Shown one piece after another: positions 21,950 through 44,192 of a stretch of DNA of 44,192 nt (its first letter is position 1; every line of letters starts with the position of its first letter). Both the position numbers and the translations under genes were made by a program. The stretch spans positions 1 to 44,192 of the IMG/VR virus record IMGVR_UViG_3300007735_000975; one strand, given 5' to 3'. A model generated the notes under the pieces. It was not told where the DNA came from. It did not search any database and worked only from the letters and a program-made list of their open reading frames with translations. The stretch comes from a virus.

Positions 21950-21981
21950 CCCCCTCTTTGTACTTCGGCACGTTCTACCCT

Positions 21982-24376: not shown

Positions 24377-25066
24377 TTAGGCGGCCTTCGTCTTTCGCTT
24401 GCCTGTGCGCTTTTTCGGCTTGCCCTCTGTGTGCGCAGCCCAAAGCGCAACAGCGCACGCCTCGATGACGTCGACAGGCAAGGCGGCGTCGCCATCTGGG
24501 CTAAGCACTTGCGCAAGATTGGCGGGGATGCCGTAGTGCAGCATCTTTCCGATGACTTCGGCAGTTGGCTTTTCGCCGGAGGGCAGCCCAAGCCCGGCGC
24601 GCCATTGCATCGGCATCGGGCGCAGAAGCTGCGCTTCGGGGTGCCGTGCCAGAATCGGGCCACACACAAGGCCCGAAATCCACACGATTTGGCCAGCCGA
24701 TCGCGCGAATCCGCCCATTGGGGGCGGCTTCTCGCACGCAATCATAAGGGGCATCGCTGCACAATGCGCCGCGATTAGCGCGCCGATCTGCGCGTGCGCA
24801 GGGTGCAGCGGCGTGCCGTCAATGCGCTCGGCACCTGTGGGCGTACAGGCTGCCGCACTCAGCCGAAGCCCCGCCGGGCCCGCCGCTTTGGCTGTACTGC
24901 CGCGCCAAACCCAAGCGGCAAGCAGCCCGGGCAGTTGGCCAGCCGCAAGGCGATCTGCGGAAGGGCAGAACAGCGCGACTGCGGCGCCGTTGGTGGTTGC
25001 CGGGTCGATTCCGATGATCACGCAGGCGCGGGTTGGTGACTCGATCGGCAAGGCGCGCTGTGTCAC
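24377..25066 (-). CDS. RuvC-like Holliday junction resolvase
   Basis: A 229-residue RNase H-fold nuclease expected to cut branched DNA before packaging. The acidic active-site residues appear in order: D21 in IIGIDPATTNG, E111 in MIACEKPPP, and D198 with E201 in PVDVIEACAVAL. A basic tail follows (KPKKRTGKRKTKAA). Relative to cellular RuvC it carries an insertion at about residues 30-85. It starts with GTG overlapping the stop of the cytosine methyltransferase gene and probably shares that transcript. Confidence 0.75.
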   Translation of the reverse strand: MTQRALPIESPTRACVIIGIDPATTNGAAVALFCPSADRLAAGQLPGLLAAWVWRGSTAKAAGPAGLRLSAAACTPTGAERIDGTPLHPAHAQIGALIAAHCAAMPLMIACEKPPPMGGFARSAGQIVWISGLVCGPILARHPEAQLLRPMPMQWRAGLGLPSGEKPTAEVIGKMLHYGIPANLAQVLSPDGDAALPVDVIEACAVALWAAHTEGKPKKRTGKRKTKAA

Positions 25067-26130
25067 TGTGCCGCCTGGATGAGTGCGCGGGCCACAACTT
25101 CCGCGAGCTTTGGGGGCACCGCGTTACCGACCTGCCGATACTGCGAACCGATACCACCCTGAAACGGATGGTCGGCGGGGAAGTCCTGCAAAATGGCGCA
25201 CTCTGTCGGGGTTAGTCGGCGACGGCCCGTGCTTAGATAGAGCGCATCGGACGCCCACTGCATCTTCTCCAGGTTGCCACCTGATCCGCTGCCCTTCTCT
25301 TCGCCGACAGCAGTAACGGTGGGGTTTGGCTTAGACAGGATTTGATCGACGATCGCCCACGGACCAGCGTTGCCAATCACTTCCGCTGTGATGGTGGTGG
25401 ATGGCTCGTGTGTCAGGTCGCGCTCTGTCCGATCTTGGGGCCGTCCTTTCTTGCTCGGATTGGCGCCTGCCCCAATAAACACGGCCACATGTGGGAGCGC
25501 CGATCCCATCGATACCCACGGCGCTGCGCGGCCCAGCCCATGCGTCGGGGTCGGCTCCGCCAGCGGGCACGGCCCCGCCCACAGGATGACCCGCCGCCGA
25601 TGCTGGGGCACGCCGTAGTCTGCCGCGTCAAGGAGCCACCACCCGACGTGCGCGAAGCGGCGCCGCAGGTCTGGCAGGATGACACGCTCAAAATAGCAGC
25701 CGGGGCACGCCTGCGGGTCGGGCCGCGAAAACAGGCCCTCTTGACCACCGGCGGATCTGCACCCGACAGTGTGAAGTATAAGCCCGCGCACGTTCTCACA
25801 TAGTACCCACGCCGGACGGAAGCGGTCGATGGCCGCCGTGGTCCAGGGCCAGCCGTTGCGCTCATCGGCGGCGCCGCGGCGCTTTCCAGCAAGGCTAAAA
25901 GCTTGACATGGAAAACTCGACCAAAGTACATCAATCGGGTCCGCCCCAATCGCGGCGGCGATCGCGTCGAGGTCGCGCACGTCACCTTCCACCACTGGCC
26001 CCAAGCCCGCGGCGCGCAGCGTGGCGCAGGCGTCCCGATCCCACTCGCACAGTGCGGCGTGATGCAGGCCGGCGCGCTCAAGGCCAAGCGCGGCTCCGCC
26101 GGCGCCCGCGAAAAGCTCAAGGCAGCGCAT
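25063..26130 (-). CDS. C5 cytosine DNA methyltransferase
   Basis: A 355-residue enzyme that methylates cytosine in phage DNA, probably as protection against host restriction. All key motifs are present: I (FAGAGG, 7-12), IV with catalytic C75 in SSFPCQAFS, VI (CENVRG, 111-116), VIII (QHRRR, 176-180) and X (GNAVPP near the C-terminus). The target-recognition region lies between VIII and X (about residues 185-300). I prefer the ATG at 26130, preceded by CGGGG, to the ATG at 26148, which has no ribosome site. It overlaps the upstream gene by 14 bases. Confidence 0.9.
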   Translation of the reverse strand: MRCLELFAGAGGAALGLERAGLHHAALCEWDRDACATLRAAGLGPVVEGDVRDLDAIAAAIGADPIDVLWSSFPCQAFSLAGKRRGAADERNGWPWTTAAIDRFRPAWVLCENVRGLILHTVGCRSAGGQEGLFSRPDPQACPGCYFERVILPDLRRRFAHVGWWLLDAADYGVPQHRRRVILWAGPCPLAEPTPTHGLGRAAPWVSMGSALPHVAVFIGAGANPSKKGRPQDRTERDLTHEPSTTITAEVIGNAGPWAIVDQILSKPNPTVTAVGEEKGSGSGGNLEKMQWASDALYLSTGRRRLTPTECAILQDFPADHPFQGGIGSQYRQVGNAVPPKLAEVVARALIQAAQ

Positions 26131-26497
26131 GCAAAACCCCGACTCCATGCGCGTCCGCGTGCGCGTCGATCACGGCTTTGACGACCTGACTCAACGAAAC
26201 GTCAAGCACAACCGCCAGATAGCGCACTTCGGTATGATGCGCCGCCCATTCGGGGCCCGATAGCTGACAGATGCCCAGGCCCTCAGCCTCGATCCCGCGC
26301 AGACACACGGGCAGAGGCGCACGCACCGGTCGCAGCTTCGGGGCGGCAAAGTTCGCAGGCCCCAAGGCGGCGCGTGGCCAGATCGAAAGCAGCGCCGCCG
26401 TGCGGCTTGGCAGTCCCCCGACTTTGGCGACAGCATCGAGATAGCTCATTCGAGCCGGGCCGATGGCTACACTTGTCGCGATGCGCTCAATCGCCAT
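26117..26497 (-). CDS. Small protein of the methyltransferase operon, unknown
   Basis: A 126-residue protein with a helix at residues 15-45 (MSYLDAVAKVGGLPSRTAAL) and a Pro-rich middle containing a possible metal site (PVCLRGIEAEGLGICQLSGP). A C-terminal helix contains LAVVLDVSLSQVVKAVIDAH. The start (26497) overlaps the end of the HTH-like gene; other in-frame Met codons exist at 26506 and further down, so the N-terminus is uncertain. It overlaps the methyltransferase start and is likely co-expressed. Function unknown. Confidence 0.45.
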   Translation of the reverse strand: MAIERIATSVAIGPARMSYLDAVAKVGGLPSRTAALLSIWPRAALGPANFAAPKLRPVRAPLPVCLRGIEAEGLGICQLSGPEWAAHHTEVRYLAVVLDVSLSQVVKAVIDAHADAHGVGVLHALP

Positions 26498-30645: not shown

Positions 30646-31170
30646 ATGGCATTGGAGGTCAAGATACACGCGCGCAACGGCGTTTTGCCTGCGCACGCAT
30701 CACAAGGCGCGGCGGGACTCGATCTGCGCGCTGACAGCCTGCAGCGAGCGACTGAGTACTACGCAGGCGAAGCAGACACGATCGGGACCGGCGTGCACGT
30801 GGCGATTCCAGCCGGACACGTGGGGCTCTTGTTTCTGCGGTCCAGCCTTGCCAAGCGCGGCTTTCGGCTGGCTAACGGCGTCGGCGTGATTGATAGCGAC
30901 TATCGCGGCGAAATCAAGGTCGCGCTGTATTACAGCCCTCAGGGCATGCAACCGGGCACGATCGCCCCGGGCGAGCGCATCGCGCAACTTGTCGTGCTGC
31001 CCTGTCCCGCGCTCGAAGTAATCGGCGAACCCGATGTGGATGCTCTCGGCTCAACGCCGCGGGGCGACGGCGGCTTTGGGTCGACCGGGCGCGGCGTCCC
31101 TGACCTATCGCCGGGCGTTGATGCTCTGCCGGGGCAGGTCGGTCTTTTCAACACAAAGGAAGGTGCATAG
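30646..31170 (+). CDS. dut: dUTPase (dUTP pyrophosphatase) with clamp-motif-like tail
   Basis: A 174-residue trimeric dUTPase that hydrolyses dUTP to dUMP, the ThyX substrate, and keeps uracil out of DNA. The five motifs are intact: AAGLDLRA (22-29), RSSLAKRG (65-72), GVIDSDYRGEIKVAL (80-94), GERIAQLVVLP (109-119) and RGDGGFGSTG (139-148). The C-terminal extension ends PGQVGLFNTKEGA; QVGLF (164-168) fits the bacterial sliding-clamp binding motif Q-x-x-L-F. The next gene encodes the clamp and starts at the base where this gene stops. GGAGG precedes the ATG. Confidence 0.95.
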   Translation: MALEVKIHARNGVLPAHASQGAAGLDLRADSLQRATEYYAGEADTIGTGVHVAIPAGHVGLLFLRSSLAKRGFRLANGVGVIDSDYRGEIKVALYYSPQGMQPGTIAPGERIAQLVVLPCPALEVIGEPDVDALGSTPRGDGGFGSTGRGVPDLSPGVDALPGQVGLFNTKEGA

Positions 31171-32339
31171 TGTTTTCTGCTCAGATCAACGTTTCCGCGC
31201 TCAAGACGGCACTAAACACGGTGCGGGCGGCGATTAGTCCGCGGGCAGCCAACGAAATCAACAAGTGCGTGCGGCTTGAAGTGGGCGCGGCGGGGCTGAC
31301 TTTGACGGCGACTTCGGGGCTTATCGCGATCGAAGCGCATGCCGAATGCGAAGCTATGGGCGATGAAGCGATCGTCGTCCCGCATGACAAACTTGCGATG
31401 GTTTGCGGCCTGTATGACGGTGTTCTCAGCCTGAGTTTCAACGCCAATCGGCGGCGATTGGTGGTCAAGGCTGGCAAGTCGGAACACACTTTGGCGTGCC
31501 TCGATGCCGCCGACTGGCCCCCGATCGCCTGGGAGCCGGAAGGCGCGGGCCTCGCCCTTGTGGCAGATGGCGCAGCCTGGGCGCGCGGCTTTGCAGTTGC
31601 CGGCCACGCAAGCCAAGATGAAAACCGGTACGGGCTAAACGGCGTGAATGTCGAACGCATCGGCGACGAGGGTCTGCGCTGTGTTGCCACCGACGGCAGC
31701 CGCTTGGCCTGGGCTGATGTCGAATGCAGTCTGCCGATCGGCGCTATTGCCATTCCGGGTAAGCAGCTTGTGCCGGTCGAGGTATCGCGCGCCCTTGTGC
31801 GCAGCGCGGCGGGTGGCGGTTCGTGGGGGCTGCGCCTGGGGCAGCGGTCGGGCGCTTGGGGGCAGGTCGATGCGGATGGGCAGCCCGCCAAGGGCGCGGG
31901 CCGCATGTGGTTCCGCTTGGTTGAAGGCGAGTTTCCGCAATACCAAATGGTTCTGCCGGCGAGCTACAAGCGCACGGTCAAGGTCGACGGCGCAGCGCTT
32001 TCGCGGGCGCTCAAGGCTGTTTGCCTTACCGCAAACGATAAAAACAACAGTGTGCGCGCCACTTTCGAGGATGGTCGGGTTCTGTTCGCCACGCAGGACA
32101 CGAAAGACACCAGCGGCGTCAAGGTCGAAGTCGATGCGGATTTGGTCGGTAGTGCGCTGACTACGGGCTTCAACGCTTCATTCTTGGCTGAAGCTTTGGC
32201 GCTATTGGGCAGCCCGGCGCAGGTAGTGGTATCGCTGGGCGATACCCTCGATCCTGTGCTGTTGACCGCGGGCGCACCGGCGGCGAAGACCGTCGAAACC
32301 GCCGAAGCCATCGTCGTTATGCCGATGCGCCTTGATTGA
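31170..32339 (+). CDS. dnaN: DNA polymerase sliding clamp (DnaN, beta subunit)
   Basis: A 389-residue bacterial-type ring clamp that tethers polymerase to DNA. It starts MFSAQINVSALKTALNTVRA and ends with EAIVVMPMRLD, the conserved C-terminal strand forming the peptide-binding pocket in DnaN. The three repeated domains of about 120-130 residues fit the length. A GTG start follows GGAAGG, with its first base being the last of the dut stop. No DNA polymerase III alpha or other replicative polymerase is recognised in this window, so the clamp may recruit the host polymerase (inference). Confidence 0.9.
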   Translation: MFSAQINVSALKTALNTVRAAISPRAANEINKCVRLEVGAAGLTLTATSGLIAIEAHAECEAMGDEAIVVPHDKLAMVCGLYDGVLSLSFNANRRRLVVKAGKSEHTLACLDAADWPPIAWEPEGAGLALVADGAAWARGFAVAGHASQDENRYGLNGVNVERIGDEGLRCVATDGSRLAWADVECSLPIGAIAIPGKQLVPVEVSRALVRSAAGGGSWGLRLGQRSGAWGQVDADGQPAKGAGRMWFRLVEGEFPQYQMVLPASYKRTVKVDGAALSRALKAVCLTANDKNNSVRATFEDGRVLFATQDTKDTSGVKVEVDADLVGSALTTGFNASFLAEALALLGSPAQVVVSLGDTLDPVLLTAGAPAAKTVETAEAIVVMPMRLD

Positions 32340-32352
32340 TCGGTTCCACACT

Positions 32353-32396
32353 TTGACAGGCCCGTGATCGTGGTAGATTGCGGGCCTGTCTTGTTT
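32353..32396 (+). terminator. Hairpin terminator overlapping a promoter candidate, dnaN to reductase
   Basis: GACAGGCCCG (32355-32364) pairs perfectly with CGGGCCTGTC (32381-32390) and is followed by TTGTTT. The same bases contain TTGACA (32353-32358) and, 15 bases on, TAGATT (32374-32379) preceded by TG-g, so terminator and promoter are interleaved. Confidence 0.6.
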
Positions 32397-32407
32397 CCGG
32401 AGGTAGT

Positions 32408-34489
32408 ATGTCCACGTTGTTTGGGTTGGGTGAATGGTCAAAGCATCAGGACAAATGCGAGGCCTGGGCGGCTGATGCAATCGCCGATCTTTCCGATAGT
32501 GACGCGCTTGTGGGCCTTTCGCCCGGTGCACAGTTGGCAAGCGAAATCGTGCGGCTGCGGACCTATGCCAAGGTTAAGGCAGACGGCCAGCGCGAAACGT
32601 GGCGGGAGACTGTCACCCGTTGGGGCGGGTATTTCTATTATCGGCTGTGTCAGCGCACGACCGACCTAAACGCACAAGCAGAGATGCGCGAAGCGGTGCG
32701 GGCGGTATTTCGGCGCGAAGTGATGCCGTCGATGCGCGCACTTTGGGCGGCTGGCGATGTGCTCGAAAAGAATGATATTGCCCTGTACAACTGCGCTTTT
32801 GCGCCTGCCGATAGCTTGGCGGTATTTTGGGAGGGCCTGTATATTCTCATGCACGGAACCGGCTTTGGGTTCAGTGTGGAATCGCAGTTCGTCAACAAGC
32901 TGCCGATTCCGACCCTTTGCGATGGGCTGACCTTGACCACACACAGAGTCCACGACAGTACAGAAGGTTGGCGCGATGCCATCGAAGAGGGTGTTCGGGC
33001 ATGGTTTGCCGGTCATACAGTCACGTTTGACTTCTCGCAAATCCGGCCCGCCGGCGCACGTTTGGCGACCAAGGGCGGCGAAGCTTCGGGCCCCGAACCG
33101 CTGCGCAAGTACCTGAACGCTTTGCGGGAGACTATCCAGAACGCAGCCAAGAATAGCCGCCGACTAACCACCCTCGAAGTTCATGACCTTCTGTGTTGTG
33201 CGGCTGGGGCTGTGCAGGTCGGCGGCGTGCGGCGGTCGGCGATGATTTCGTTTAGTGACGTCAACGACGCACAACTTCGGTGGGCGAAGCACTATCCTGC
33301 CGCATATGGCCTTGGCGTCGATATCCCAATCGAACGCTGTCAAGCCAACAACAGTTGGGTATGGTCTGACCCAGAAGCCTTGAGCTTCGCCGACTTTGAC
33401 GCCGAATGGCAGGTCTTGCGCACATCGCATGCAGGCGAGCGGGGTATCTTCTCACCGGCTCGATTGGCCTACCGGGGTGTACCTTTGCGCGCAAACCCGT
33501 GCGTGGAAATCGGCTTGGCGTGGCAAGATGCCGCAGACCCTTCGGGGGACAGCGGCGGCGGGCAGTTCTGCAATCTGTCAAACGTTATCCTTCGACCAAC
33601 CGATACCCTGCAAACCGCGACAGCGAAAGCAAACCTTGCCGCGTTTATCGGCACGGTTCAGGCTTCGTGCACGCAGTTTGTGGGTTTGCGCGATGGCTGG
33701 GCGACAGTGACGCGCCGTGATGCTTTGTTGGGTGTGGGTCTGTCAGGGCAGGCAGATTGCCCCCAAATCGCATCTTCAACGCACAAACTTGCGGCGCTGA
33801 ACGCAACCGCAATCGACGCGAACGCGCATTGGGCGGCCATTCTTGGCATCAACGCGGCAGCCGGTGTCACGTGTGGCAAACCAGACGGCAATAGCTCCGT
33901 GTTCCTAGGGTGTTCCAGCGGTGTGCACTCGCACCATGCCCGGCACTATCTGCGGCGCATCACTGTTAGCGCCAAGTCGCCAATCTGCGCAGTGTTGCGC
34001 GAAGCCGGGGTGCCGTGCATCCCTTCGCTTTATACCACTGCCGATAAGCTCGAACGCGGGATTATCGCTGCAGACGAGGTTGAGGCGTGGCTCTTTGAAC
34101 TGCCGATGGCGGCACCGGGCGGTGCCCTGGTTCGGCAGGATGAAGGCGCGATCGAACTTCTTGAGCGCGTCAATGTGATCAATGCCGGTTGGTTGGGCGT
34201 GAAGGGTCACAACCAATCCGTGACCGTAAACGTGCGGCCCGAAGAGTGGGATACCGTCCGAGATTGGGTATGGGCACATCGCGCAAACCTGGGCGGGGTG
34301 AGTTTCTTTCCCTTTGATGGCGCCGTGTACTATGGCCAGCCTCTCAGCGATTTGACGCAAGAAGAGTATGCCCAGCGGGTTGCCGACCTTCCGCCCGTCG
34401 ATTGGGCCCGGCTTGCGGTGTATGAAACCGGGTTCAGCGAAGCCGGGCAGACGTTCGCCTGCGTTGGCGGGGCGTGCTCAATCGTGTAA
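32408..34489 (+). CDS. nrdJ: Adenosylcobalamin-dependent (class II) ribonucleotide reductase
   Basis: A 693-residue monomeric reductase that makes dNTPs with vitamin B12 instead of an iron or manganese subunit. The radical site reads NPCVEIG with thiyl C365 and E367. Redox cysteines are C129 (YNCAF) and C388 (FCNLSN), and the C-terminal shuttle pair is CVGGAC. KPDGNSSVFLGCSSGVHSHH is typical of the Lactobacillus RTPR type. Between C365 and C388 are 22 residues rather than about 10, including a Gly/Ser/Asp loop. GGAGG is at 32399-32403. With ThyX and dUTPase it forms the nucleotide-supply set. Confidence 0.9.
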   Translation: MSTLFGLGEWSKHQDKCEAWAADAIADLSDSDALVGLSPGAQLASEIVRLRTYAKVKADGQRETWRETVTRWGGYFYYRLCQRTTDLNAQAEMREAVRAVFRREVMPSMRALWAAGDVLEKNDIALYNCAFAPADSLAVFWEGLYILMHGTGFGFSVESQFVNKLPIPTLCDGLTLTTHRVHDSTEGWRDAIEEGVRAWFAGHTVTFDFSQIRPAGARLATKGGEASGPEPLRKYLNALRETIQNAAKNSRRLTTLEVHDLLCCAAGAVQVGGVRRSAMISFSDVNDAQLRWAKHYPAAYGLGVDIPIERCQANNSWVWSDPEALSFADFDAEWQVLRTSHAGERGIFSPARLAYRGVPLRANPCVEIGLAWQDAADPSGDSGGGQFCNLSNVILRPTDTLQTATAKANLAAFIGTVQASCTQFVGLRDGWATVTRRDALLGVGLSGQADCPQIASSTHKLAALNATAIDANAHWAAILGINAAAGVTCGKPDGNSSVFLGCSSGVHSHHARHYLRRITVSAKSPICAVLREAGVPCIPSLYTTADKLERGIIAADEVEAWLFELPMAAPGGALVRQDEGAIELLERVNVINAGWLGVKGHNQSVTVNVRPEEWDTVRDWVWAHRANLGGVSFFPFDGAVYYGQPLSDLTQEEYAQRVADLPPVDWARLAVYETGFSEAGQTFACVGGACSIV

Positions 34490-37423: not shown

Positions 37424-39331
37424 TCAAGGGCGGGTGCCGCGTGCAATAGGCACAGCGCACGACGCCGGGCTTGGGGGGATAGTAAGGTCGGCAGGCCAGC
37501 CATACAGGCCCACAAAGCTCTTGATCCAGCCTGTGACGGCCATCACGGCGGAAGCTTGGGCCCGCGTGAGGCGGCCCGAATCTACAACGCGGGCAACTTC
37601 GGCGCGGGTCGATGCGCAGGGGTATCGCGCCCATGCGCGCGAACGCAGAACCGAAACAATGGCCTGCCGCTGCTTTTCGGTCATTGGCTGGCGGCGATTC
37701 TTGCGTAAATCGCGAATCAGCCAAGGTAAGAACTCACGTTCCTTCTCGGATAGTCGCCCGGTCTGTTTCAGGGCCTCGATCATGCACAAAGCCCAGGCGT
37801 CGATTCGTTCCAACATCACCGCTTGGGGCGGCGGGCCGGCTTCGGGCGCTTCGGCGTCTTGGTCGCGTTCAGATGCCTCTTCTGGATCGCCGGCTTCGTC
37901 GATTGCGGCACCCAAAGCTTCCGGGTGTTCAAGGCCGTGCGATGCGAGCAAAGCCAAGGGGTCGAAGACATAGCCGGTCACCTTCCCTGCATTTGTGCGG
38001 CAGACACGGCCCACTTCCTGCACAAAGCGCACTTTGGCCTTGACGTTTCGGCGGCAGGCAAGCGCGGCGAGCCAAGGGAAGTCCGCGCCTTCGGACAACA
38101 TCGAAACATGCACAAGCACAGCAATCGCGCCGGTACGTAGGGCCTCGATGCGGGCGGCCTGTTCGGCCCAGGTCAGCCGGCTATGTATGCTCGCAGCCGG
38201 GTAACCGTGGACGGTCAACCGATCGGCGAAAGCATCGGCGTCGGCGATGCTTGCGGCGTTTGCCAAGGTCGGGCCCGGCAGCCCGTGGCGCCGAAACATC
38301 GCGATCAACGCATCGTCGACGACCGGTGCCGAAGGGTCTGTCGTCCGGTCGCCCTGTGGTTCGGGCAGGTAGGGCACACAATCGGGTGTCCAGTGGATCG
38401 GCGTGATCGTGGTCACCACGCCATCCCTAAGCCCATCGGCAAAGGTATAGCGGAATACCACTTCATCCCAAAGGCTTAGGCGTTCGTCTTCGTCGCTTCG
38501 GAAGGGTGTGGCGGTAAGGCCAACCATCCATTTCGGGTTTAGTGCCAGCATTGCTTGCGCGTGGATTGGGGCCTCGGACCCGTGGCATTCGTCGACGATT
38601 AGCAGATCACAGCGGCGGCCCGATTCAATCAGACAGGCGCGCGCCTGTTCCAAAGAGGCGTAACAGGCGACAATCACGGTTGCAGGCTGTCGATAGCCGG
38701 ACATAACCAAGCCGGTATCTGGCACAAACGCTTGGATCGTCTCGCCCAACTGCCTTACCAGCTTCTGCCGTGGCGTGGCCACCACGACGCAGAAACCCTT
38801 GCGCGCACAAAGACGGGCAAGCTCAGCGATAAATACGGACTTGCCCGCGCCCATAAACGCAGAAACTACCGGGCGCAGCGCGCGCCGCGGCCCGCCGTCT
38901 TCGGGGTCGATTTGCCGGCCAAGCGCCGGGCGCACGGCATCTAAGGCGCGGGCCTGCCAAGCCCGCAAGGGGTGCGGCGGCGCATCCGGTATCGGCAAGT
39001 CAGGGCGCGGGGTGTGTCGCGGCGGCTTGGCGTCTGTAGGGCGTTCCAGGCGCGCCAGAACCCCGGCTTCGGGCGGCGGCAGGTCAGCGGTAGGGCTCGG
39101 CTTGCGGCGGTGCCCTGCGGCCTTCTGCGCGGTTCTGGCCGCTTCGGCGGCTGTGCCCTTGACGCCGGGCAGACCGGCGGCCACAAGGCGGGCCGAAAGG
39201 CGTTCCGCCGCGGCGGTCGCGCTGTCGCGCTCGGCTGCGTGGGTCGACGATGCGGCCAAGTCGAGGCAGGCGCGGGCCTTACGCCTGACTTCTGCGGCCT
39301 CGGCTGGCGTCAACGACGGCCCGGCAATCAT
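37424..39331 (-). CDS. SF2 DEAH-type helicase
   Basis: A 635-residue helicase. Residues 12-55 (EVRRKARACLDLAASSTHAA and following) resemble a DUF2786 domain. Walker A is MGAGKS (160-165), motif II DECH (247-250), motif III TATP (273-276). In the second RecA-like domain VSMLSEGADFPWL is followed by RFVQEVGRVCR (motif VI). It probably opens DNA at replication start or remodels recombination intermediates. Its ATG overlaps the stop of the DUF927 gene (ATGA), in an operon with the AEP primase. Confidence 0.85.
   Translation of the reverse strand: MIAGPSLTPAEAAEVRRKARACLDLAASSTHAAERDSATAAAERLSARLVAAGLPGVKGTAAEAARTAQKAAGHRRKPSPTADLPPPEAGVLARLERPTDAKPPRHTPRPDLPIPDAPPHPLRAWQARALDAVRPALGRQIDPEDGGPRRALRPVVSAFMGAGKSVFIAELARLCARKGFCVVVATPRQKLVRQLGETIQAFVPDTGLVMSGYRQPATVIVACYASLEQARACLIESGRRCDLLIVDECHGSEAPIHAQAMLALNPKWMVGLTATPFRSDEDERLSLWDEVVFRYTFADGLRDGVVTTITPIHWTPDCVPYLPEPQGDRTTDPSAPVVDDALIAMFRRHGLPGPTLANAASIADADAFADRLTVHGYPAASIHSRLTWAEQAARIEALRTGAIAVLVHVSMLSEGADFPWLAALACRRNVKAKVRFVQEVGRVCRTNAGKVTGYVFDPLALLASHGLEHPEALGAAIDEAGDPEEASERDQDAEAPEAGPPPQAVMLERIDAWALCMIEALKQTGRLSEKEREFLPWLIRDLRKNRRQPMTEKQRQAIVSVLRSRAWARYPCASTRAEVARVVDSGRLTRAQASAVMAVTGWIKSFVGLYGWPADLTIPPSPASCAVPIARGTRP
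37443..37460 (-). promoter_or_regulatory. Early-arm element G
   Basis: Reads GTGCGCTGTGCCTATTGC on the - strand (CC in place of GC before TATTGC). It lies inside the last codons of the helicase gene and 55 bases before the SSB ATG. Confidence 0.55.
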
Positions 39332-41487
39332 TTCTCGCCCATCGCGGATTCCACCGCGGCGCGCTGAATGCAGACACAGCGCATGCTTTGGCCGTCAACC
39401 TTGACGGGCTTATCATGCCCCGCGCCCGAAGTGGGCAGCACAAGCCAGCCGCGGGCGGCCCACTGTGCAATCACCCCGGGGCCATCATATCGATCTTCGG
39501 CCAGCCAACGGCGCAGCACGTGCGAGGCGACGGCAATAACGGCCCAGCGGTCTTTGTCGGCGTCCGGTTTCCACTGACCCAACCAACCCGCGGGCGGGGT
39601 CCGCGCGTCGCCGTCGCGGTCCAGCGCGTGGCGGCCCCAAAATGACGACTGCAAAGCAGCGGCGCGCGAAAGTGTCGCACGAAGCGCAGCAAGCGGCTTG
39701 TCCGCATCTGCGCCGCTGTGTGCGGCTGCAGCGGCGGCAACGCCCGTCGCAGTCGCGATTTCCTCCCAGGAACCGTTTGGCAGCCCGCAATCTTCGTGCG
39801 CAACCATCGCGGCAACTTCGATCGCGGCGATATGCGCGGCCAATCGGGAGGCGAGCGGACCCGCAGACGCCAGAGCATCGGCCCATGCTGCGTCGCGCTC
39901 TTCCCACAGGGTATTGATTGCAGCGCGACCCCTGGCAAGCAAGGCCCCAACAAAACGAGCGCCCAAATGCCCATAATGACGGTCGGTCGCGCGATTGACG
40001 GTAACGGCTTCCGCCCGTTCGCCGAATGGCGCCCCCTCGACACTAAGGCACCGCGCGCGGGCGCCTTCGTCTTGCGAGGTGCCAAGCAACGGGCTTTCAC
40101 CGGTTGAAATCGTAAAACTGCACCAAACGGCGCGGGCCTGCGCGCCGAAGACGAAGCCGCGGCCCTTGCCCTGCCCATCGGCCAACTGATACACGGTTTG
40201 GCCGATAAGTTCGCGTTCTTTGGGCGGAATCTGGCGGGTATCATCAAGCAAAAGCGGAAGGCACGATAGAACCGCGGCGCTGCGTTCGCGAAAGGTCATC
40301 GTCGAGGCCCACTTCCCGACATATGCCCGGGGTTGGGCCCAAACGGAAGCCGCAAGGTTTAGGGCGGTTGTCTTGCCGATCGAAGTTTCGCCCCAAATGT
40401 CAAGGACACAGCCGCGATCGGTCGTCCACGGCAGCAAAGCGGAGGCCAGCGCGGCATACACAGCCAAGCGCGCCACAGGTCGATTCGCCGCGACAGCCCA
40501 AGCGTCAAGCCAACCTTCCCACGTGCCGCGTTCGTGGATCGCGGCGGTCAAAGCTTCATATCCGCCGGGCGGTGTCAGATGCACGGGCGGAAGTGTTGGC
40601 TCGCCATCTTGCGCCGGCGCGGGGTGCCAGCCTTGCCCGCGCAGGAAACCGCCCCGAATGTGGCCCAAGCGCACGGAAACGGCGCGCTGGGGCAGCTTCG
40701 CGGCCCATGTGCTGTCGCACCAATCGAGAAACCGCGACAGGTCAGAGGCTGTAGGGCTGCAAACCGGCGCGCCTTTTGTCGCCAAACTCACAAGCTTGCG
40801 CCCATCCATAACGTCGGCGCGCGGCGTCCATGCGCGACCGATCCGCCCATCTTCGTCGATCCAGGCCACTTCGACGGAATATTCAGCGGTATCAACGTCG
40901 ACAGCGCGACCCGAAAGCAAGATCGGGCGGGTCGCCGCGACCTTGACTTTATCGCTTGGAACGCCGTCTTCGTCGACTGACACATGCACTACGCCGTTAT
41001 CGGACAGTTCCCAACCACCCCCAACCGCGGCGCCGGGCACGAGTTCCAGCAAACGATCTGCAGCGCCACGCGCCGACAGGCGGGGCGGGCCGGTGCGCGC
41101 TTGCTCGGCAGCCCAGGCTTTCGCAGCTTGAGCTTGTGCCTTTTCCACGGCCTTCATCGTGCGCGCCATTGCGGCGTCCAGCGCGCGATAGTCGGCACCG
41201 GCGCCACGGATTGCACCCGCGGCAGACAGCAGATCGCGCAGATCGTCTGACCCGGCAACGTGTAGAAGCTCGGCGACGTCACAAGCTGATGCCCGAAGTT
41301 TTGCCCAGGCGGCCAAACGAGCGCCCGCATCAACGGTTTCGTTCGCGGCTTGCTCGATTAGCGGGGCCAGCACAGCGGTAGCCCTATCGCGGCGGGCACG
41401 GGCAGCCGACGTTTCCAATCCCCAATCAGCAGGCGGTGCAAGCGAAAGTGCGGGCGGGTTCATTGTTCTTGCCGTTTGTGGTGCCAT
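39328..41487 (-). CDS. DUF927-type replication ATPase/helicase
   Basis: A 719-residue protein. The N-terminal 130 residues are helical. From residue 280 the sequence follows DUF927: GHIRGGFLRGQGWH, then DIWGETSIGKTTALNLAASV (Walker A GETSIGKTT, 366-374), GKWASTMTFRERSAAVLS, LLLDDT (Walker B, 412-417) and QLADGQGKGRGFVFG. Such proteins accompany AEP primases in phages and plasmids and act as initiation or replicative helicases. The ATG has GGAGG 8 bases upstream. It is cotranscribed with the primase and SF2 helicase. Confidence 0.8.
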   Translation of the reverse strand: MAPQTARTMNPPALSLAPPADWGLETSAARARRDRATAVLAPLIEQAANETVDAGARLAAWAKLRASACDVAELLHVAGSDDLRDLLSAAGAIRGAGADYRALDAAMARTMKAVEKAQAQAAKAWAAEQARTGPPRLSARGAADRLLELVPGAAVGGGWELSDNGVVHVSVDEDGVPSDKVKVAATRPILLSGRAVDVDTAEYSVEVAWIDEDGRIGRAWTPRADVMDGRKLVSLATKGAPVCSPTASDLSRFLDWCDSTWAAKLPQRAVSVRLGHIRGGFLRGQGWHPAPAQDGEPTLPPVHLTPPGGYEALTAAIHERGTWEGWLDAWAVAANRPVARLAVYAALASALLPWTTDRGCVLDIWGETSIGKTTALNLAASVWAQPRAYVGKWASTMTFRERSAAVLSCLPLLLDDTRQIPPKERELIGQTVYQLADGQGKGRGFVFGAQARAVWCSFTISTGESPLLGTSQDEGARARCLSVEGAPFGERAEAVTVNRATDRHYGHLGARFVGALLARGRAAINTLWEERDAAWADALASAGPLASRLAAHIAAIEVAAMVAHEDCGLPNGSWEEIATATGVAAAAAAHSGADADKPLAALRATLSRAAALQSSFWGRHALDRDGDARTPPAGWLGQWKPDADKDRWAVIAVASHVLRRWLAEDRYDGPGVIAQWAARGWLVLPTSGAGHDKPVKVDGQSMRCVCIQRAAVESAMGEK

Positions 41488-41491
41488 GTGG

Positions 41492-42445
41492 TCAGCCTCC
41501 GTATGCAGCGGGATGCATACCTGCCGCCGTCACAAGATCACCGATTGAGCCGAACCAACCGCAAGAGTTGCGATGATTGCAGTATGCGCCCCATGCACGG
41601 CGCGGATCGATCACGAACCATGCATCCGGGCGACCGCAAGATGGGCACGGCAGCCCGTGGGCGACGTCTGACCCATCGCGCGGGGCGACCTTAGCCCCAA
41701 GGTCAGCCGCGGCGCGGCGGCGCGCTTCGGGGTCTGCGCGCAATGCGGCATGCCCGCGGCGCTCTGCCCTTTCGGCGGCGCTGTAGCCGTCGTCCTGAGG
41801 TGCGGCAGCCCAGCGGCGCGCCGCTTCGGCCCGGGCGGCTTGTTTGGCGCGCAGATGATCGGCGGCGATGCGCGCAAGCTCGGCTTCATATTCCGCTTTG
41901 GCCACGTATTCGCCGACGTCGATCAAGTCGCCGGGCGCGTGATCGGCGACTTCGACCGGGCCACGACAAGGCAGAAGGTAAAGCCTCGAAGGGTCGATGC
42001 ACTTCGGGTCTGCGGCGCTCTTGTCTTGCCCGATGTCCTTGAGAATCTGGCGCATCGTCGCAGCCCAAAGCGCGCCGGCGACGGGCACAGCCAAGGGAAG
42101 CACAAGGCGGCAGCGCGGGGCGCCGGGCTGGGCGCTGTACGTGCTGTAAGCGCAGCGCTCTTTGGTCGGGAACAACGCCATAACGTCGGGAACGTCGGCG
42201 CCGTCATCAAAGTCGAGCACAAGCGCATATACGGCTGTGATTGATGCGGCGGTGCGCCGGTTGCCCTGCGCCGCATGCGGGGCCCAGCACGCAGCATCCA
42301 GCTTGTCGGCGGCCCTGTCGCGATCGTGCGAGGTCAGCGCCTTGCGCAGTTGGCCCCAAGAAGTCGGCACCGGGCGGCCAAAGGCAGAGCGCCGGGCCGC
42401 GGCGTAGTAAGCCGAGGGGCAAGCAAGCCCATCGTGGCAAAGCAT
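41492..42445 (-). CDS. AEP-superfamily primase (PrimPol-like) with zinc finger
   Basis: A 317-residue primase. The catalytic acids sit in ALVLDFDDG (75-83). The next block is YSTYS with RCRLVLPL (100-118), then DPKCIDPSRLYLLPC (146-160), typical of archaeo-eukaryotic-type primases of phages. The C-terminus is a CHC2-like zinc finger: CPSCG (267-271) and YCNHRNSC (288-295). It would make primers or short DNA for phage replication. It is the first gene of the replication operon, next to the proposed origin. The hydrophilic middle (181-250) is a charged helical linker. Confidence 0.75.
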   Translation of the reverse strand: MLCHDGLACPSAYYAAARRSAFGRPVPTSWGQLRKALTSHDRDRAADKLDAACWAPHAAQGNRRTAASITAVYALVLDFDDGADVPDVMALFPTKERCAYSTYSAQPGAPRCRLVLPLAVPVAGALWAATMRQILKDIGQDKSAADPKCIDPSRLYLLPCRGPVEVADHAPGDLIDVGEYVAKAEYEAELARIAADHLRAKQAARAEAARRWAAAPQDDGYSAAERAERRGHAALRADPEARRRAAADLGAKVAPRDGSDVAHGLPCPSCGRPDAWFVIDPRRAWGAYCNHRNSCGWFGSIGDLVTAAGMHPAAYGG

Positions 42446-42497
42446 CGTGTGACCTGGGAACGGGTGGACCTGCAGAAGCGCGTGGGGCCCGTTGTTC

Positions 42498-42530
42498 CTG
42501 CCGCCCCCGGGGATCAGTCGAGGGCGGCAG
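42498..42530 (-). promoter_or_regulatory. Hairpin in primase leader
   Basis: CTGCCGCCC (42498-42506) pairs perfectly with GGGCGGCAG (42522-42530) in the 5' leader of the primase mRNA on the - strand. It may be an attenuator or a protein-binding structure. Confidence 0.45.
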
Positions 42531-42617
42531 GCGGGGTGCCCAGGTCAGCAGGCGCAGCCGGTGTAGCCGTAGGTAGCGGACCCGTCAAGCGGCGAGCATC
42601 GCCCTTGGTCGCGCGAT

Positions 42618-43110
42618 GGGTCGCGGGTTCTTGCGACCCGTGGACTTTTGAGAATGGCGTGATGGTCGAAGCCCTGAACGTGTGGCTTGCGGTGGGTCGT
42701 TAGGGTCGCGACCCGTTGACGACCGGCGAAAAGGCCCATAGGCTCTATGCTTTCATCTATAAAACATGATTCAGTTACAACTTTTCAGATTACTATACCT
42801 ATACGCGCGCGGACTTTTCATTATGTCCTGATTATTGCACTATTAGTGCGCGAAAGCTATTGCATTCCAGCCCTCTTCTTCTATTTTGAACTTTTCTCTG
42901 TGGGCGAGACTATGTGATTTCCCGTAGACCGACGACCCAAAATGAGAATGTGCATGGGCGCGATGCTTTCGACGATTTTCGGGTCGCGGGGCGCTGTAAC
43001 CAGCCGCGACCCGACCCCACGAAGACGGGCGAAACCACAAGCGGATCAATGGTGTAACGGGTCGCGACCGGCCCGCGACCCAACGACCGGCCCGCGACCC
43101 GTCCGCGACC
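42618..43110. repeat. GGGTCGCG / CGCGACCC iteron-like repeats
   Basis: Copies of GGGTCGCG or its complement lie at 42618, 42703 (with 42707 as palindrome GGGTCGCGACCC), 42981, 43005, 43059, 43074 and 43093, with near copies at 42633, 42694 and 43104. GACCGGCCCGCGACCC is repeated in tandem at 43066-43081 and 43085-43100 (19-base period). A further copy lies after the HTH-like gene at 43580-43587. Confidence 0.75.
42846..42863 (+). promoter_or_regulatory. Early-arm element F
   Basis: Reads GTGCGCGAAAGCTATTGC on the + strand, identical in its core to element A. TTGCAC lies 17 bases before TATTGC, a plausible -35. It points toward the HTH-like gene 357 bases downstream, across the second iteron cluster. 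Confidence 0.6.
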
Positions 43111-43162
43111 GAAGGCAAGCAAGGTCGCTCTGTGACGTTACGGTTACGCGGCGGTCGCATAT

Positions 43163-43176
43163 TGTTGCTTGCAACA
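43163..43176. promoter_or_regulatory. Palindromic operator candidate upstream of HTH-like gene
   Basis: TGTTGC-TT-GCAACA is a perfect inverted repeat, followed by the near-palindrome aaggtaacctt (43184-43194). Both lie within 60 bases of the ATG at 43221 and could be autoregulatory sites. Confidence 0.45.
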
Positions 43177-43220
43177 CTTGACTAAGGTAACCTTATGCAG
43201 CCGCAAGGGAGGCGGTCCAA

Positions 43221-43571
43221 ATGGCGAACCAGCGCAACAACAGATATTCAGCAAATCATCCGTTTGTAATCGCGACCTATAAAATGCGCGCTCAGGGCAT
43301 GTCGGTAAACCAGATTTCAGACGCGATTAAACTCAACAAGGGGCAGGTGTGGCGCTTTCTGCAAACGCCAGCCTATGACCCAGCCAACAAAGACAAAGCA
43401 TCGCCGTCGCAGACGGTCATGGCCAGCAAGGCAGCCGCTGTGCGAGTGCAAGGCTTGACAATCAAAGCGGACGATGGGCGACCCGTTGAACTGCGTTGCA
43501 TGTCATGCACAAAGGACCAAGGCGGCTCAACGTTCGTGATTACTGTCTTTCTGCCTGATTGCAACAACTAA
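43221..43571 (+). CDS. Small HTH-like DNA-binding protein
   Basis: A 116-residue protein. Residues 19-50 (TYKMRAQGMSVNQISDAIKL, then NKGQVWRFLQTP) fit a helix-turn-helix of the kind that reads short repeats. The second half is beta-like, with a C-x2-C pair (CMSC) and strands STFVITVFLPD. GGGAGG precedes the ATG. Surrounded on both sides by GGGTCGCG repeats, it is a candidate iteron- or element-binding regulator. That link is an inference from position. Confidence 0.6.
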   Translation: MANQRNNRYSANHPFVIATYKMRAQGMSVNQISDAIKLNKGQVWRFLQTPAYDPANKDKASPSQTVMASKAAAVRVQGLTIKADDGRPVELRCMSCTKDQGGSTFVITVFLPDCNN

Positions 43572-43637
43572 AGCCCGTCCGCGACCCGACCCAAGCCAGG
43601 GGCTGCACTTGCCCGCGGCGTGCGCGGATGCTATCTT

Positions 43638-43657
43638 GCCCTTGGGTCACCAAGGGC
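43638..43657 (+). terminator. Hairpin after HTH-like gene
   Basis: GCCCTTGG pairs perfectly with CCAAGGGC across a 4-base loop, 66 bases after the HTH-like stop. Only a short TTG follows, so it may be a weak terminator. The rest of the 191-base gap to the next gene shows no further structure. Confidence 0.45.
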
Positions 43658-43762
43658 TTGACGCCGTTGGCGACCTGGGCCGCCCCGTTCCGCTTGCGGC
43701 CCGCGTGAGGCGACTTGCGCGGGAGGGCGTGGCGGCCCCTTTCCCCCCATCGCCGGTGCGCC

Positions 43763-44095
43763 GTGCCTCTGCCCGACAATCTGCCCACACAACCGCATCC
43801 CGACGACGGGCGGCCCGATTGGCTGCGCGGTGCGCCGCAAGTCGCGCAAGACGTTTGGCAGGCGGTGCGGCATCTTGAGCCGGGCGCTTGGGTGACCCAA
43901 GCCGATCTGATTGATGCGGTGCCGGATTGCGCCGACGACTTCGGGCGGCTGCGGATCGAAGCCCAGTCAACGCTCGAAGCTCTCGCCATCGGGCGCGTAT
44001 ATGGGCCGATCGTTGACGGGCGCTCGGAGGTCCGCTGGCGTCGGGCCCCGTGGCGTGCGCCGGTACCCTGTAGGCGGTGTGGGGTGGTGCGGTGA
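43763..44095 (+). CDS. Small protein before the terminase genes, unknown
   Basis: A 110-residue protein with a winged-helix-like centre (AQDVWQAVRHLEPGAWVTQA, then DLIDAVPDCADDFGRLRIEA) and a basic end containing CRRC. The GTG at 43763 is chosen because the protein-like sequence begins there; a TTG at 43715 would add 16 low-complexity residues. No good ribosome site is visible. Its position just ahead of the putative cos site and small terminase would suit a packaging accessory or regulator, which is inference. Confidence 0.45.
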   Translation: MPLPDNLPTQPHPDDGRPDWLRGAPQVAQDVWQAVRHLEPGAWVTQADLIDAVPDCADDFGRLRIEAQSTLEALAIGRVYGPIVDGRSEVRWRRAPWRAPVPCRRCGVVR

Positions 44096-44182
44096 GAATG
44101 CCGATCAGCAGCGCGTTTCCGGCGGACACTGCGCGGGTGTACAGTGTACCCCCATGTGCCAAAAGGCGCACCCCCCCGGGTG

Positions 44183-44192
44183 CCCTTTCCCT
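44183..44192. repeat. Right copy of 10-base terminal direct repeat
   Basis: ccctttccct, identical to bases 1-10. An ATG at 44154 upstream opens a frame that continues into the gene at 50-511 if the ends are joined. GTAC-AGT-GTAC at 44139-44149 is a near-palindrome close to the putative cos site. Confidence 0.6.

Follow-up and report, generated by a model that had tools for sequence, protein, structure and literature searches.

The origins of phage-inducible chromosomal islands (PICIs) are described as 'always' comprising two sets of iterons that flank an AT-rich region, and replication from the pri-rep-ori unit has been shown experimentally (PMC6092414). In the staphylococcal pathogenicity islands (SaPIs), Rep recognises its iteron origin through a C-terminal domain. 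The Cch protein of the staphylococcal cassette chromosome SCCmec carries a DUF927 domain and is related to SaPIbov1 Rep, and the C-terminal domain of Cch2 binds iteron-like direct repeats beside its operon (PMC7581432). Here we describe a locus of comparable layout in a viral DNA of 44,192 nucleotides (IMG/VR record IMGVR_UViG_3300007735_000975; hereafter the window, which is the whole virus record). The segment 42600-43111 is, with good probability, a tailed-phage replication origin, in which a DUF927 helicase would melt an AT-rich core between two iteron sets beside a primase-helicase operon that its leader probably gates. An initial annotation had already named 42446-43220 a likely origin, and this gains support from a layout kept in eight relatives, a peak of meltability and the kinship of the adjacent helicase to a staphylococcal pathogenicity island protein of known structure. 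The sequences show the repeats with their dyads and slots, the meltable core, the conservation of the locus, the homology of the helicase and, by covariation, the fold of the leader; from them we infer that initiation takes place within 42600-43111, that the DUF927 protein binds the iterons and that the leader acts on translation.

The eight relatives were recovered by primase and helicase searches and are 67-97% identical to the window in the primase or the DUF927 helicase. They are L014, a contig of a Sphingomonadaceae metagenome-assembled genome (primase 91%), L004 (84%), L007 and L008 (about 67%), and L023-L026, which were found later and are close to one another (helicase 69%). As the relatives are in part mutually close, the set comprises about four or five lineages when the window is counted in. 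In each of the eight, two blocks of repeats enclose an AT-rich core and are followed by a promoter, the 105-nt leader and the primase, with the DUF927 helicase next after the primase wherever the contig extends (L004 stops just past the primase); these two genes are the constant neighbours of the repeats. No DNA similarity to known phages was detected. Within the family of the Sphingomonadaceae assembly, searches of 398 genomes for the helicase and of 200 genomes for the leader returned only L014's own genome. A distant primase relative, L009, has its primase fused to a helicase and lacks a DUF927 partner. When the upstream regions of L009, L010 and L011 were searched for repeats, the only families recovered had two copies each and resembled chance.

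A degenerate iteron on both sides of an AT-rich core

The octamer GGGTCGCG, originally proposed as the repeat unit, is a real signal, with 18 copies in the window against 5.45 expected, a count reached in none of 100 shuffles. Eight of these copies lie inside 42446-43220 (at 42618, 42703, 42707, 42981, 43005, 43059, 43074 and 43093) and a ninth lies outside it at 43580. This is the densest segment for any octamer, any 775-bp stretch elsewhere in the window holding at most five copies. The seven exact copies first reported are recovered if the overlapping pair within the 12-base palindrome GGGTCGCGACCC (42703-42714) is taken as one. The palindrome itself and the 19-base tandem (copies at 43074 and 43093) are present as described, and the near copies, put at three, number five with one mismatch (42606, 42632, 43010, 43063 and 43104).

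As a unit, the exact octamer is too narrow. Comparison of the relatives indicates that the true repeat is GGTYRCRR, and that GGGTCGCG is merely the GC-rich form of this wider motif. Most relatives have the GC form GGTCGCGG, and two have the AT form GGTTACAA; in these two, L007 and L008, GGGTCGCG is absent and GGTTACAA occurs 10 and 9 times, respectively. The forms differ by transitions (GGT-C-G-C-G-G versus GGT-T-A-C-A-A). The motif was first defined by eye from five sequences, namely the window (12 copies), L014 (15), L004 (8), L007 (13) and L008 (10), where about 0.5 copies are expected; an open search and the four later relatives serve as safeguards. When all octamers with four two-fold degenerate positions were searched across the same five sequences, GGTYRCRR ranked first (minimum 8, sum 58), and shuffles gave a minimum of at most 2 and a sum of at most 14. 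Away from the origin its density falls to 0.5-0.8 per 720 bp. L023-L026, which played no part in deriving the motif, have 4 copies per region, as many being found in 0-1 of 500 shuffles. Their iterons stand at -263, -186 and -175 from the primase start codon, compared with -268/-266, -193 and -181 in the window.

Many copies are paired as 20-bp dyads of the form GGTYRCRR-N4-YYGYRACC, which are confined to the origin locus (2 in 44 kb of the window and 2 in 13 kb of the relative L015). The primase-side array contains the dyad GGTCGCGG-N4-TTGCGACC (42619-42638), and the distal array a mixed-form dyad, GGTCGCGG-N4-CTGTAACC (42982-43001), at whose place L014 has two AT-form arms. Iteron offsets from the core match between relatives: L014 and L004 use the slots of the window, and those of L007 and L008 are displaced by about 7 bp or more relative to the core. 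The 43 shared iteron columns show 15 transitions, 4 transversions and 24 identities, the transitions and transversions of the remaining alignment standing at 100 versus 130. The idea that L007 and L008 had acquired an unrelated, swapped-in iteron was rejected because the forms differ mostly by transitions in aligned slots and are mixed within one dyad of the window. The absence of the repeats from relatives of the same gene order had been named as grounds for abandoning the origin; GGGTCGCG is indeed absent from L007 and L008, yet the AT form GGTTACAA fills its slots. If the iteron is coded in purines and pyrimidines, the array could drift between forms with no change in the initiator. The window also encodes a C5-cytosine DNA methyltransferase (25066-26148), and the GC-form iteron holds two CpG steps.

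The AT-rich island noted between the repeats is confirmed (Table 1). Whether measured over 60, 100 or 150 bp, the least stable segment of the 44-kb window lies in it, by a wide margin, the 60-bp minimum being -1.13 kcal/mol per step (42744-42803) against -1.32 for the next best and a mean of -1.585. The matching place in L015 is likewise least stable, at 60 and 100 bp. Conserved sequences in the core are TTGTAAC and, at 42793-42812 on the minus strand, CCGCGCGCGTATAGGTATAG. In L004, L007, L008 and L023-L026 the core is bordered by a hairpin whose arms resemble AGAAGAAG/CTTCTTCT (L007 5580-5620; L004 4600-4640; L023 3600-3655); the window and L014 retain a single arm, with a promoter-like insertion in place of the rest. 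A dispersed element, TGCAATAGCTTYCGCGCA, recurs with 0-2 mismatches at 21981, 24343, 27414, 29039, 30564 and 42847. On the opposite strand its last bases form a TTGCRC-like hexamer, with a -10-like hexamer about 17 bases further along, including upstream of the dUTPase gene, and promoters of similar type precede the divergent gene in L007 and L008. These elements may form a family of phage activator-dependent promoters; a plain consensus scan found no excess over chance.

Table 1. Features of the proposed origin and its neighbouring genes (window coordinates)
Feature	Position	Strand	Details
DUF927 AAA+ helicase, 719 amino acids, proposed initiator	39328..41487	-	PF06048 E 6e-36; phrog_8841 residues 156-712, E 3e-83
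Primase-like protein, 317 amino acids	41492..42445	-	C-terminal zinc-ribbon-like CPSC..C.H motif; best PHROG phrog_9765 DNA primase, E 1e-10, partial
Structured mRNA leader ending at primase start codon	42443..42553	-	Covariation
Sigma70-like promoter of primase operon, TTGACG-N17-TACACC	42560..42590	-	-35-like and -10-like blocks aligned in relatives
Primase-side iteron array	42606..42714		GGTYRCRR at 42619(+), 42631(-), 42704(+), 42706(-)
AT-rich core, proposed melting region	42745..42900	.	37% G+C in 63% genome
Distal iteron array	42981..43111		GGTYRCRR at 42982(+), 42994(-), 43004(-), 43060(+), 43062(-), 43073(-), 43092(-), 43103(-)
Helix-turn-helix (HTH)-like gene, 116 amino acids, accessory cassette	43221..43571	+	Weak PHROG matches
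Outlying GGTCGCGG copy	43579..43586	-	Beyond HTH cassette

The primase-helicase operon and its leader

The 100 bp beside the primase, included in the segment first named as the likely origin, hold no origin repeats but a promoter and a structured mRNA leader. The promoter follows the nearest iteron at a distance of about 30 bp and has a spacer of 17 in the window, L004, L007 and L008; the spacer of 10 in L014 is an unexplained exception. The predicted leader fold has no broken pairs in five sequences, and four pairs are changed on both sides. One stem reads CCTGCCGCC/GGCGGCAGG, and CCTGCCTCC/GGAGGCAGG, CCTGCCCTC/GAGGGCAGG and CCTGCACCG/CGGTGCAGG in other sequences. Shifting the structure by 1-3 columns lowers the pairing from 100% to 32-48%. 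A covariance model built from the five sequences detects the leader in four unseen relatives with E <= 8e-14, and a search of 42300-44192 against Rfam gave no match with E <= 1. The AGGU ribosome-binding sequence just before the primase start codon is paired within the closing helix GACCUGGG/CCCAGGUC, and the leader thus probably represses primase translation until it is opened. With its compensatory changes as support, it is a candidate new regulatory RNA.

The DUF927 protein matches the solved structures 8tch ('Pathogenicity island protein', E 3e-31) and 5dgk ('Active helicase', E 2e-8); no solved structure matched the primase, whose AlphaFold model is of low confidence (mean predicted local distance difference test score, pLDDT, 55). 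Towards the C-terminus of the DUF927 protein, the block RRWLAEDRYDGPGV.AQWAARGWL...DKPVKV.GQ.MRCVC is nearly invariant among the relatives and belongs to the least variable parts of the protein, as expected if all these helicases read one degenerate motif. We infer that this block is the iteron reader.

In the proposed mechanism the DUF927 protein would act as a self-loading helicase that, perhaps together with the primase, binds the two GGTYRCRR sets, often as 20-bp dyads, melts the AT-rich core between the arrays and then loads as the replicative helicase. The primase would prime, and the phage clamp and a single-stranded DNA-binding protein would cooperate with the host polymerase. Transcription of the operon would run away from the origin from the sigma70-like promoter, and its translation would be gated by the leader pairing with the ribosome-binding site. 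The phage has its own gene for a DNA polymerase III beta clamp (31170-32339), and another (32378-34489) for a protein resembling ribonucleotide reductase, with weak Pfam support.

Competing explanations for the repeats

Several observations weigh against an origin of this kind. The GC-skew check proposed in the initial annotation did not reveal a clear turn there. In L023-L026, the most divergent of the relatives, perfect iterons number only 4 and the CGCGCGCG element is missing. PICI and SaPI origins lie 3' of rep, and in the window and its relatives the locus described here is found 5' of the primase gene. The structural match of the DUF927 protein spans the helicase core (residues 172-519) and not the C-terminal domain expected to bind iterons, and the AlphaFold model of this protein is unreliable (mean pLDDT 33).

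The repeats might alternatively be operators through which a transcription factor controls the flanking divergent promoters, the AT-rich island being promoter DNA. Their intergenic position between divergent genes fits this explanation, as does a rightward promoter-like element, TTGCAT-N16-TATTTT, inside the island. Nevertheless, we regard it as unlikely, given that the primase promoter lies 150-200 bp from the island, that the nearest perfect iteron is anywhere from about 20 to 65 bp away from the -35 box, depending on the relative, and that the repeats extend across 500 bp, flanking the most meltable DNA on either side. Moreover, the divergent neighbour gene differs between relatives, and the repeats and core remain. 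Arrays of short repeats would also suit a parS-like partition centromere of a phage-plasmid, and L007 and L008 have genes with a ParB_N domain near the terminase. However, no ParB_N match was found in the window or in the record of L004 (a fragment), both of which have the same arrays, although control genomes were positive; neither an AT-rich core nor a helicase-primase operon is expected at a centromere, which makes this explanation highly improbable.

The HTH-like protein was initially included in the origin machinery, and its gene is adjacent to the repeats and divergent, so that it could be imagined to bind them as the initiator or as its regulator. Yet the records of L004, L007, L008 and L014 contain no match to it, even though the iterons of L014 are nearly identical to those of the window. 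Iteron copies stand on either side of the gene, and so do the two units of a 13-bp direct repeat, CCCGTCCGCGACC (43098-43110 and 43574-43586), itself made of iteron sequence, as would be the case for an inserted or excisable cassette. Because relatives lack the gene and it sits, cassette-like, among the repeats, there is very little reason to expect that its product is the iteron binder, and the DUF927 helicase is the preferred candidate for that role.

A satellite-type layout in a tailed phage

The window encodes the terminase large subunit, capsid and tape measure of a tailed phage; no tyrosine integrase was found, and a defence-family scan of the genes neighbouring the origin was negative. 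The sequence CCCTTTCCCT occurs at both ends (1-10 and 44183-44192), with terminase genes following the start; this could reflect a complete genome that has a short cohesive end, or else an overlap left by assembly. By the genome end lies a gene of unknown family for a 126-amino-acid protein (43715-44095), shared with L014 (70-459).

Among replication systems with iterons, satellite phage P4 has the phage-encoded primase-helicase origin-binding system alpha/ori/crr, in which alpha is a single fused protein and the repeats lie in two separate regions. DnaA-dependent oriC was considered as well, and no DnaA box (TTATNCACA) was found at 0-1 mismatch in the window's origin region. Origins of the phage lambda type share with this locus, as proposed here, iterons for a phage initiator. 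The lambda iterons are located inside a replication gene (PMC11447400), whereas those described here fall between genes, and the proposed initiator is a helicase in its own right. SCCmec differs from this locus in that the Cch2 site consists of three 5-nt iterons and the primase is different; SCC replication in vivo has not been shown.

The origins of PICIs, including those of E. coli, and of SaPIs are closer. Here too, two iteron sets flank an AT-rich region, genes for a primase and an initiator-helicase are adjacent, and the helicase is of the same DUF927 family as the SaPIbov1-type Rep (PF06048; 8tch and 5dgk matches). The differences are that the iteron is transition-tolerant, that a structured leader stands ahead of the operon, and that the element, with its terminase, capsid and tape measure genes, is a full tailed phage and not a satellite. 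By this analogy the locus would work like a PICI origin, yet the element is not a PICI. A bolder proposal, which we advance tentatively and at somewhat less than even confidence, is that of a self-sufficient tailed-phage lineage with a satellite-type (PICI/SaPI) two-array origin, whose DUF927 helicase reads a purine/pyrimidine-coded GGTYRCRR, whose array drifts between GC and AT forms under an unchanged initiator, and whose operon is controlled by an RNA leader, not described before, that hides the primase ribosome site. The GC-form and AT-form arrays, accompanied by helicases that are 78% identical, offer a ready natural test of the way such helicases recognise an origin. A complete tailed phage with both the two-array layout and a helicase of the SaPI Rep family would mean that this layout also occurs beyond satellites, and would inform the question of the source from which the satellites obtained their replicons.
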